Notes under the pieces: generated by a model | What the model was told of the DNA's origin: nothing | The model's input: the letters and a program-made list of their open reading frames with translations, nothing else | Database searches by the model: none | NCBI RefSeq assembly: GCF_014640255.1 | Contig: NZ_BMGP01000004.1 | Coordinates: 124,001-188,000, forward strand | Source: Subtercola lobariae | Lineage (GTDB): Bacteria; Actinomycetota; Actinomycetes; Actinomycetales; Microbacteriaceae | Direction: 5' to 3' | DNA length: 64,000 bases | In this document: positions 59,485 to 64,000 of the stretch, one piece after another | How positions within the stretch are numbered: position 1 is the first letter of the stretch | Layout: each line of letters opens with the position of its first letter | Position numbers and translations under genes: made by a program

Positions 59485-59670
59485 TTTCGCGGGGCGGCCC
59501 GGGGGATGGGCGGGCCGCCCCGCGAAAGGGATTCGTGCGAAGGGCGGGTTGGGGGAAAACGCCCTTCGCACGAAACTGGTTCGTGCGGCGGCAGGTCGGG
59601 GGAACGCACCGCCGCACGAGTTCGTGGGTGCGTGTGGCGAGCTGTTAGGGGGGATACAGCCCGCCACACG
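59485..59670. ncRNA. Candidate structured RNA: array of four G/C-loop hairpins
   Basis: H1 59485-59527 has a perfect 17-bp stem, H2 59532-59574 a perfect 15-bp stem, H3 59581-59619 a perfect 11-bp stem, H4 59631-59670 9 bp, one mismatch, then 5 bp. Centres are spaced 47, 47 and about 50 nt. Every loop contains GGGGGA(A/T) or GGGGGGAT; on the minus strand the loops read (A/T)TCCCCC. Arms of H1-H3 begin TTCG. The array lies between two predicted leaderless starts, so it is in neither mRNA. C-rich loops recall actinobacterial 6C RNA, which has two hairpins. Transcription and strand are unproven. Confidence 0.5.
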
Positions 59671-59817: not shown

Positions 59818-62121
<2,304 letters not shown>

Positions 62122-62160
62122 CCGCCTCGGCGGTCACCCGACCGGTTCCGCTGCCGCCTG

Positions 62161-62220
62161 ACCGACACGGCGGTCACCCGACCGGCACGGTGGTCACCCG
62201 ACCGGCACGGTGGTCACCCG
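62161..62220. repeat. 20-bp tandem repeat
   Basis: Three units of ACCGGCACGGTGGTCACCCG, the last two identical and the first with two changes; a decayed relative starts near 62132. Confidence 0.95.
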
Positions 62221-62307
62221 ACCGGTTCCCCTGCTCCTGCGCGCCTCAGCGTCAGCCCGCCGGCGGCCTGACGCGCCCAAAAGCCAGCCGGCCCGCGCCC
62301 CATCTAC

Positions 62308-62515
62308 CGCACGAGGGAGTTACGTCGGAGCACAGCCGATATCCGCCCGTATTGTCGACTTGCGCGCTCTGCTCCGACCTAACTCCCGCAGCCTGTGCCC
62401 GATGTGTGGATGCTCGGCATCGCAGATGCTCGGCAGCGCACGTGCCCGGCAGCGCACGTGCCCGGCCGCCGCTCACCGCCGACGCCACCGACTGCATGCG
62501 TCGCCGCGGGCTCAC
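62308..62515. repeat. Duplicated palindromic unit, copy A
   Basis: About 104 bp match copy B with two changes, then a diverged spacer and a similar tail (GCCGCCGCTCACC...GCGTCGCCG). Inside, GGGAGTTACGTCGGAGCA (62315-62332) pairs with TGCTCCGACCTAACTCCC (62370-62387): 18 positions, one mismatch, 37-nt loop. Confidence 0.9.
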
Positions 62516-62547
62516 CCCGTCAGGAGAGCCGGCTCCCCACCACGTGC

Positions 62548-62725
62548 CGCACGAGGGAGTTACGTCGGAGCACAGCCGATATCCGCCCGTATTGTCGACA
62601 TGCGCGCTCTGCTCCGACCTAACTCCCGCAGTCTGTGCCCGATGTGTGGATACTCAGCAGCGCGCATGCCCTGCCGCCGCTCACCATCGACGCCACCGAC
62701 TGTTTGCGTCGCCGCCGGCTCACGC
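62548..62725. repeat. Duplicated palindromic unit, copy B
   Basis: Same arms at 62555-62572 and 62610-62627, exactly 240 bp after copy A; both arms are unchanged and the two nearby substitutions fall outside them. The tail is shorter by about 30 bp. Confidence 0.9.
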
Positions 62726-62742
62726 CTGGCAGGGCGCGGGCG

Positions 62743-63897
62743 TCAGACGGCGTAGGCGCCGACGAGGCGCACGGCGCCGCCGTTGACACCCTTGGCGCCC
62801 TGCTCGAAGCCCGTGAAGTCGCGGGAGGTGGTGGCGACTTCGCCGATCTGCCAGGTACGGATTCCGTCTGCCGAGAGCGCTGCTGTGATCGCCGCGGCCG
62901 CGGGGGCTGCGACGATGGCGATCATTCCGATACCGAGGTTCCAGGTGCCTTCGGCCGACTCGAGGGTGGAGCCCGCCCAGTCGCTCAGCACGCGGAAGAC
63001 CGGCAGCGGCGACCACGTCGCGCGGTCGACCTCGACCCACGATCCGACAGGCAGCACGCGCGCGAGGTTCGCCGCGATTCCGCCGCCGGTGACGTGGCTG
63101 AGCGCGTGCACGGAGCCCATCGGCACTGCGATGTCGTAGCCTGCGTGGTCGAACCCGTCGGCACCCGTCGCGAAGCCCTGGGCGCCGCCGATCAGGCGCA
63201 GGAGGGGCGCGGTGTACAGCCGGGTGGGCTCGAGCAGAGCTTCACCGACCACGCCACCGAGTTCGGCCGAGGTGGAGCTGTACGAAACTCCGGCACCAGA
63301 GAGAATGTGGCGTACTAGTGAGAATCCGTTCGAGTGCAGGCCCGACGACTCGAGCGCCAGAACAACGTCGCCGGCGGCGACGCGCTCGGGGCCGAGCAGA
63401 GCATCCGCTTCGACCACACCTGTGGCAGCGCCCGCCACATCGTAATCGTCAGGCCCGAGCAGCCCCGGATGCTCGGCCGTCTCGCCCCCGACCAACGCTG
63501 TTCCGGTGGCGGCACACCCCCGCGCGATTCCGGCAACGATGTCGGCGATGCGCGCCGGAACAACCTTGCCGCAGGCGATGTAGTCCGTCATGAAGAGCGG
63601 CCGCGCGCCGACCACCACGATGTCGTCGACCACCATGCCCACCAGGTCTTGACCAATGGTGTCGTGCTTGTCGAGCGCCTGCGCGATGGCGACCTTCGTG
63701 CCGACGCCGTCGGTGGAGGTCGCGAGCAACGGGCGGCGGTACGCCGTGAGCGCCGACACGTCGAAGAGCCCCGCGAATCCGCCGAACCCGCCCACCACGT
63801 TCGGGCCGTGCGTGTTCGAGACCGCCGACTTCATGAGTTCGACCGCGAGGTCTCCGGCCGCGGTGTCGACCCCGGCTTCGGCGTAGCTGTTCGTCAT
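62743..63897 (-). CDS. purM: Phosphoribosylformylglycinamidine cyclo-ligase (AIR synthetase)
   Basis: The 384-residue enzyme closes the imidazole ring of FGAM with ATP to give AIR, step 5 of purine synthesis. Start: ATG with GGGAG upstream. PurM marks: YAEAGVDTAAGDLAVELMK, GFGGFAGLFDV, LATSTDGVGTKVAIA, DLVGMVVDDIVVVGARPLFMTDY, GGETAEHPGLL, ALESSGLHSNGFSLVR and HVTGGGIAANLARVLP. Length is a little above the usual 345-360. It converges on purDC; a palindrome lies upstream. Confidence 0.96.
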   Translation of the reverse strand: MTNSYAEAGVDTAAGDLAVELMKSAVSNTHGPNVVGGFGGFAGLFDVSALTAYRRPLLATSTDGVGTKVAIAQALDKHDTIGQDLVGMVVDDIVVVGARPLFMTDYIACGKVVPARIADIVAGIARGCAATGTALVGGETAEHPGLLGPDDYDVAGAATGVVEADALLGPERVAAGDVVLALESSGLHSNGFSLVRHILSGAGVSYSSTSAELGGVVGEALLEPTRLYTAPLLRLIGGAQGFATGADGFDHAGYDIAVPMGSVHALSHVTGGGIAANLARVLPVGSWVEVDRATWSPLPVFRVLSDWAGSTLESAEGTWNLGIGMIAIVAAPAAAAITAALSADGIRTWQIGEVATTSRDFTGFEQGAKGVNGGAVRLVGAYAV

Positions 63898-63938
63898 GCG
63901 CCCATTCTCCCAGACTCGCCCCTGCGCCGCGCCGCAGT

Positions 63939-63996
63939 GAGGCCGTTACGCCGTAGCGAGCCCGGCGTACCTGCCTCATCACGGCGTAACAGGCTC
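63939..63996. repeat. Palindrome upstream of purM, related to the 62.3-kb units
   Basis: GTTACGCCGT (63945-63954) pairs perfectly with ACGGCGTAAC (63981-63990); the stem extends outward to GAG/CTC with two mismatches. GTTACGCCGTAGC matches 11 of 13 bases of the left arm of the duplicated units. Confidence 0.7.
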
Positions 63997-64000
63997 ACTA

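Follow-up and report, generated by a model that had tools for sequence, protein, structure and literature searches.

REPs are found chiefly in the spacers of convergent and tandem genes, close to gene 3' ends, and they also occur inside genes, DNA repair genes among them, with dnaE2 named in a published account (PMC3733652). In that account, REPs are 20 to 40 bp long, with a stem of 5 to 13 bp, a loop of 2 to 20 bp, and an unpaired GTAG or CGTC tagging one end. They are described there predominantly from Proteobacteria, the CGTC type is without a dedicated transposase, and the account leaves open what moves them and what roles they play (PMC3733652). We analyzed a pair of longer palindromes from Subtercola lobariae, and we hold, with moderate confidence, that they are two copies of a 73-bp REP-like dispersed palindrome, spread by insertion or copying and kept at gene 3' ends, where it likely limits read-through or 3' decay. 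No such 73-bp family was described in the titles and abstract openings, drawn from few subscription journals, of the literature on repeats in Subtercola, Microbacteriaceae, Clavibacter, Leifsonia, and Microbacterium or on actinobacterial REPs and RAYTs.

Two palindromes in the purDC-purM spacer

The window, meaning the whole 64,000-nucleotide stretch of DNA that was analyzed, comes from a genome of 4.09 Mb. In it, a 621-bp spacer between the convergent genes purDC (plus strand) and purM (minus strand) holds two 73-bp palindromes that are 240 bp apart. The features are as follows.

59818..62121, plus strand: fused purD-purC reading frame, 767 aa, with domains GARS_N, GARS_A, GARS_C, and SAICAR_synt; left convergent neighbor
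62300..62533, no strand: first unit of the local tandem duplication (element plus flank), aligning to 62540-62741
62315..62387, plus strand: 73-bp palindromic element, copy 1; the plus strand bears the CGTATTG center
62324..62331, plus strand: left block GTCGGAGC of copy 1, element columns 10-17, with its mirror GCTCCGAC at 62371-62378
62348..62354, plus strand: center CGTATTG of copy 1, columns 34-40, with the dyad base A at 62351
62540..62741, no strand: second unit of the local tandem duplication, aligning to 62300-62533
62555..62627, plus strand: 73-bp palindromic element, copy 2, matching the family model
62588..62594, plus strand: center CGTATTG of copy 2, with the dyad base A at 62591
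62743..63897, minus strand: purM, 384 aa, with domains AIRS and AIRS_C; right convergent neighbor

A sequence-only reading of this DNA had proposed a duplication with a 240-bp period and about 104 bp alike with two changes, and the alignment bears this out, as 105 bp are common to both copies (62307-62411 and 62547-62651) with two changes and at a distance of 240 bp. The tails, said to match again beyond a variable stretch, do so after a 32-base gap, and the units aligned in full show 182 identical positions, 19 mismatches, and 34 gap letters. The flanks were doubled along with the element; the real duplication in the window is therefore a local tandem one that covers both. The stem of 18 positions was also described exactly for the two window copies, as were its single C-C mismatch and the loop of 37 nt. 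The folding energies of both copies on both strands had z scores of -5.7 to -8.3 relative to shuffles. Inverted repeats with an arm score of at least 14 numbered 5 in the real window and 0 in 8 Markov-resampled windows, and those with an arm score of at least 12 numbered 6, compared with 0, 3, and 0 in three block shuffles. A translated product across the region, which the earlier reading had named as evidence that would count against it, is not indicated by codon use, by which the two open frames across the palindromes (198 and 181 aa) look noncoding, scoring -61 and -42 while purDC and purM scored +258 and +146. Neither frame matched a Pfam family, and the whole 64-kb window gave no Rfam match above the gathering score.

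Several other repeats were observed nearby. The purD part of the fused protein has a Glu-His dipeptide run near its start (19 residues), a short repeat that could vary in length, and a degenerate 20-bp tandem repeat begins at the purC end and continues in the spacer (62097-62234). The divergent spacer upstream of purD (59485-59574) contains two strong hairpins with loops of 9 and 13 nt. Upstream of purM (63928-64000; L113:2683-2762), an inverted repeat of 80 bp, whose 27-bp arms are separated by a 26-nt spacer, extends past the window end.

A dispersed family in Subtercola

The earlier reading had held that a single occurrence of the stem-loop in the genus, with no conserved structure, would speak against it, and a search of the whole genome and of relatives found the element far beyond the window. 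The 17 rows of the BLAST listing consisted of the query itself, three second-strand repeats, and 13 further distinct places in this genome. Fifteen copies of this genome align across exactly 73 columns with no gaps, and columns 10 to 17 are invariant in this first alignment, with a few later, more distant copies differing there. Both ends of the element pair, with GGG at the left in 14 of the 15 copies and CCC at the right in 9. The C-C mismatch, previously thought to be kept, is not a family-wide property, as columns 9 and 65 are C-C in five of these copies, C-G in four, G-C in four, and G-G in two. Likewise, the 37-nt loop was correct in length and incorrect as a plain loop, since the unit is a 73-bp element with the conserved inner blocks AGC, CATG, and CGTATTG.

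A first covariance model, built from the fifteen copies of this genome, had matches in 11 of 12 genus genomes (E values up to 0.05). The model designated R2, built from 56 copies of five species and applied at an E value of 1e-4, gave 54 strand matches in this genome, 68 in G009, 90 in G002, 51 in G005, and 40 in G006, with 3 to 20 in six other genus genomes and 0 in G003, such that again 11 of 12 genomes were matched. The number of places is about half the number of strand matches because most places match on both strands, and the 54 strand matches in this genome thus correspond to about 27 places, with 25 distinct places among the matches listed. An arm pattern matched 35, 24, and 9 times in G000, G009, and G005, respectively, versus 0, 0, and 1 for the reversed pattern, and 33, 20, and 8 of those matches lay inside R2-listed places. 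Outside listed places, G000 had two weak matches and G005 had one, and the remaining matches fell in a tandem repeat of 21-bp period in G009. At one G009 place (L074:2837-2936; G009:C1:590036-590135), this period reflects five head-to-tail repeats of the right arm of an element. When named genomes were scanned for an exact pattern, only the Subtercola MAG RYN_58 (five contigs) and one unrelated record matched. A Burkholderiales pattern match (L021) had no model match at an E value of 0.01 or better and was put down to chance.

The element is 73 bp long in 92 of 121 places (range, 66 to 75 bp). The two GTCGGAGC-type blocks enclose a core of 55 bp at 66 of the 69 places and of 56 bp at the other 3, a constancy that the fitted model may itself favor, and none of the three 56-bp cores has an intact CGTATTG. 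The 69 places were obtained by keeping one strand per place from 137 strand matches (for L058, the strand that scored slightly lower), and incomplete matches, one in L112 and two in L102, were extended to 73 bp. Alignment A5 comprises the 56 of these 69 places that are exactly 73 nt, and its absence of gaps is due to that selection. Another list of 97 strand matches gave 52 places used, with L026:844-916 omitted and L163 widened. All fetched places are the best scoring among the matches listed.

Placement relative to genes

Gene context, derived from a codon-based gene caller, showed that 60 of the 121 fetched places are convergent, 50 are tandem, and only 3 are divergent; a further 5 fall within called genes, and the last 3 are at the ends of contigs. 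Divergent settings thus account for 3 of the 113 classified intergenic places, whereas background spacers of at least 60 bp in four sampled stretches were 30% divergent and 14% convergent (P = 4e-14 for divergent scarcity, with places not fully independent). The location P values exaggerate the significance because orthologous places and tandem pairs enter more than once. Between convergent genes, the median distance from the element to the nearer stop codon was 20 bp. Between tandem genes, the upstream stop was at a median distance of 57 bp and the downstream start at one of 96 bp, with the upstream stop nearer in only 29 of 50. The strand of the center agreed with transcription in 15 and disagreed in 11 of 26 tandem Subtercola places, and it agreed in 9 and disagreed in 15 of the other 24; therefore, the orientation of the element is free.

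Several functional candidates were set aside. A promoter operator was rejected because divergent regions are avoided, and with it the promoter sense of the palindrome-based regulatory site that had been one of three options in the sequence-only reading; a DNA dyad site, the other sense of that option, is weighed below as a rival. A chromosome-position marker of the matS or KOPS kind was rejected, as the 33 listed G009 places, with dnaA taken as the origin, showed no clear bias toward a replication strand (15 versus 18) or toward the half around the terminus, which holds 21 of the 33 (P = 0.08). A DNA uptake sequence was tried via the short motif GNCGGAGCNNAGC, which occurred 49 times versus 56 for the reversed control in G000, 61 versus 51 in G005, and 22 versus 66 in G003; with frequencies this close to the control the motif was uninformative, and the longer arm pattern was used instead. 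Phages, plasmids, and viral contigs had no match to the element, which rules against a phage or plasmid origin.

Copies inside genes and signs of movement

One copy of the element lies in frame in the gene for the error-prone DNA polymerase DnaE2 of this genome (NCBIfam PRK05672; E = 0), and G002 also has an element copy in dnaE2. Compared with a DnaE2 homolog on a Microbacterium plasmid, which is 60% identical and from another genus, the query has an extra 36-residue stretch that includes all 25 element residues. This "empty" homolog may itself be broken, because it is represented by three tblastn pieces and no listed gene. A Tsukamurella homolog is without a much longer stretch around the place of the element, as are solved DnaE structures (residues 866-950 versus about 8). 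In other species, two oxidoreductase-like frames (L094 and L026) contain copies that are read in a similar frame, with weak codon scores nearby. The codon scores around the element at L060, another place inside a called gene, are negative, and this is probably a mis-called gene end.

A tandem pair in G002 (L107) is identical at 84 of 86 positions, which comprise the element and only 8 and 5 bp of flank. Pairs of elements 169 to 202 bp apart occur in G009 (L076 and L102), G006 (L098), and G002 (L107). Three places were common to this species and G009 (L063/L084, L066/L087, and L073/L081), a sign of persistence, some of them common also to G002 or G006, and most fetched places were not common to species in the partial sample. 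A transposase of the IS200/IS605 type (Y1, RAYT; PF01797) was detected in 0 of 12 genus genomes, while 5 of 14 control genomes were positive, and a RAYT-driven REP was rejected on the basis of that absence. Target duplications of 2 to 9 bp were no commoner than with shuffled flanks at 56 places, and old copies could have lost them. No parent transposon was seen via the arm pattern (1 mismatch at most) in G000, G009, and G005. In a test of whether halves reassort through crossover at the center, the correlation (r) of left and right halves was 0.31 in G000 (P = 0.002) and 0.03 in G009 (P = 0.39).

Related dyads in the Microbacteriaceae

Subtercola belongs to the Microbacteriaceae, and a scan of that family with strict filters at an E value of 0.001 matched 20 of 249 genomes in 11 of 85 genera, with 5 of the 20 from Subtercola. 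A class-wide scan of 296 genomes matched this genome and gave three marginal single matches, one of those in the Microbacteriaceae. The related units elsewhere in the family are 66 to 75 bp, with a mostly similar center and arms that are specific to the lineage: CGGACGGAGC in G011, CGGGAGGAGC in G001 and G008, and GGGCGGAGAT in G164 and G215. The likeness of the centers alone proves little because the loop of the model favors a CGTATTG-type center, and long inverted repeats were therefore sought without any model in 1.2 Mb of four genomes. The nongenic palindromes with a spacer of at least 29 numbered 13, of which 12 were odd in length, and 6 of these 12 had TAT or ATA at the exact center (P about 2e-9 from composition, with a spacer cut picked after viewing the palindrome list and several palindromes having common arms, so that the cases are not independent). 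The count was rerun at other cuts, and without a spacer cut it was 6 of 27. The 13 long spacers contain nine TAT or ATA trinucleotides, every one within one base of the center.

The purC-purM place itself varies among species. In G009, it is occupied by a differently armed second family, which has at least four G009 copies and supplies one of the 12 odd-length palindromes, and in G002 it holds yet another palindrome; by eye, the 73-bp family is in the purC-purM spacer of this species alone among 12. Other palindrome families occur near genes between 3.6 and 4.0 Mb of G009 (L187-L206), for example ATCGAGCTACGAGTTTGTGCGGGTG (four places in these 400 kb) and TTTGCGCAGAAGCACC, and the same 400 kb contains 26 nongenic palindromes of at least 44 bp. 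It is conceivable, and in our judgment rather improbable, that a Microbacteriaceae superfamily of dyads, with arms that vary by lineage and family around a common central TAT, serves as target sites for some undescribed lineage of recombinases or transposases, enzymes that would insert and exchange dyads at gene 3' ends and re-target through arm change.

DNA dyad or RNA hairpin

Pairing across lineages gave 219 double-change cells versus 134 ± 10 in shuffles and 78 to 100 in slid controls, an excess that lineage-specific arms alone could also produce. The first 15 copies of this genome showed no pairing excess. Compared with swaps of whole right halves among 24 copies of this genome (G000), observed total pairing was slightly higher, at 0.720 versus 0.699 (19 of 500), carried by columns 1 to 9, where it was 0.815 versus 0.730 (0 of 500). 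The inner columns of G000 showed no gain over swapped halves (0.526 versus 0.530 and 0.568 versus 0.581), and columns 18 to 33 were null. Total pairing was 0.711 versus 0.678 in G009 (15 of 500) and 0.761 versus 0.665 in G006 (0 of 500), and in columns 18 to 25 it was 0.600 versus 0.510 (10 of 500) and 0.703 versus 0.534 (0 of 500), respectively. On the sense strand, G-T mismatches were not in excess over A-C mismatches (78 versus 85). A small RNA was rejected for want of strand bias, and the pair of small RNAs put forward by the sequence-only reading is disfavored by the 3'-end location, the alike strands, and the missing G-T excess. Given this mixed evidence from pairing and spacing, a DNA dyad and a hairpin are both possible. 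We lean toward a REP-like element characterized above all by its 3' placement, and recognition at the DNA level is the chief rival.

In that rival, which is possible and on balance unlikely, the element is a double-stranded DNA site, a dyad of some 55 to 73 bp for an oligomeric protein such as a recombinase, transposase, or nucleoid protein, with an arm specificity that shifted between lineages and a central TAT contact that stayed. The 55-bp core is near constant even though many inner columns are unpaired, the inner columns of G000 pair no better than swapped halves, and the G-T bias is absent, all of which are consistent with a DNA site, as are the central TAT or ATA of the model-free palindromes (at either cut) and the other-armed second family at the purC-purM place of G009. 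However, the outer columns in G000 and columns 18 to 25 in G009 and G006 pair above swapped halves, and pairing across lineages exceeds shuffles, which favors a hairpin or a process in which one arm is repeatedly repaired from the other; the lack of a clear terminus-half or replication-strand bias among the G009 places also weighs against a DNA site.

That the element is only an ordinary bidirectional intrinsic terminator, with the likeness of the copies incidental, would fit the convergent and 3' location, the strong folds on both strands, and the fact that genes of the genus have further long hairpins at their 3' ends. However, the T fraction was 0.145 after the hairpin and 0.147 before it (50 tandem places), with no U-tract; the element is therefore not a canonical intrinsic terminator, and this reading, which also has to accommodate the conserved center, the intragenic copy, and 73-bp units with common blocks at dozens of places, seems very unlikely to us. 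We give still less credence to a classical MITE, in which the arms would serve as terminal inverted repeats for an insertion sequence of the DDE type that these genomes still carry. The inverted arms, near-constant length, dispersal, and apparent dnaE2 insertion suit it, but 61 of 68 arm matches are in listed 73-bp places, with four in the adjoining tandem repeat and three isolated, none fits a longer element, and target duplications were not found at the 56 places. In the broader sense of a miniature mobile element, the corresponding option of the sequence-only reading is nonetheless the best supported of its three: dispersal, copying with little flank (L107), and the in-frame dnaE2 copy argue for it, and the searches above found neither a transposase of the Y1 type nor a target duplication.

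The REP-like reading that we prefer can be put as a series of steps. Each half of the element carries conserved blocks at fixed distances from the central CGTATTG. The family would have been dispersed through the chromosome by insertion or copying; the dispersal is observed, and the enzyme and event are hypothetical. In the places examined, copies are retained chiefly downstream of genes, most of all where two genes converge, and hardly at all in divergent promoter regions. At such gene ends, the long dyad, whether it acts as DNA (bound or extruded) or as an RNA hairpin from either strand, most likely marks the ends of transcription units and would limit read-through or 3' decay, as has been proposed for REPs. 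Later, the element of the window was doubled together with its flank by a tandem duplication of about 200 to 240 bp, which is observed as such.

Comparison with known systems

Tyrosine-recombinase core sites have inverted arms around a short asymmetric center. By analogy, the present element may be compared with them, in that its center is among its best conserved parts. The common center with changing arms offers a practical way into the search for the protein that reads the palindromes.

Among described repeats, stem-loop sequence families are similar in being repeated, mostly intergenic, and of unassigned function in bacterial genomes (PMC2267715). The survey differs in covering 40 genomes, and the actinobacteria in its available table are Corynebacterium and Mycobacterium (PMC2267715). 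Rickettsia palindromic elements (RPE) are described as palindromes of the REP kind inserted in protein-coding genes (PMC3733652), a likeness to the copies found here inside genes; unlike RPE, the present family has another host and sequence, and 5 of its 121 places are inside called genes.

The closest counterparts are the REPs of the GTAG and CGTC types, which like the 73-bp family are dispersed, mostly extragenic palindromes that prefer the 3' ends of convergent and tandem genes and include a dnaE2 copy (PMC3733652). As with the CGTC REPs of that account, no dedicated transposase was found for the 73-bp family, and it differs from the GTAG REPs in that no Y1 transposase was found in 12 genus genomes (PMC3733652). 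It also differs in host, a member of the Actinomycetota, and in design from the REPs described there, being 73 bp and symmetric, with long arms around a conserved center and no one-sided unpaired tag (PMC3733652). An actinobacterial counterpart of REPs that is built differently, and yet has the same 3'-end preference and dnaE2 insertion, would suggest that bacteria have repeatedly acquired palindromes at the ends of their genes.
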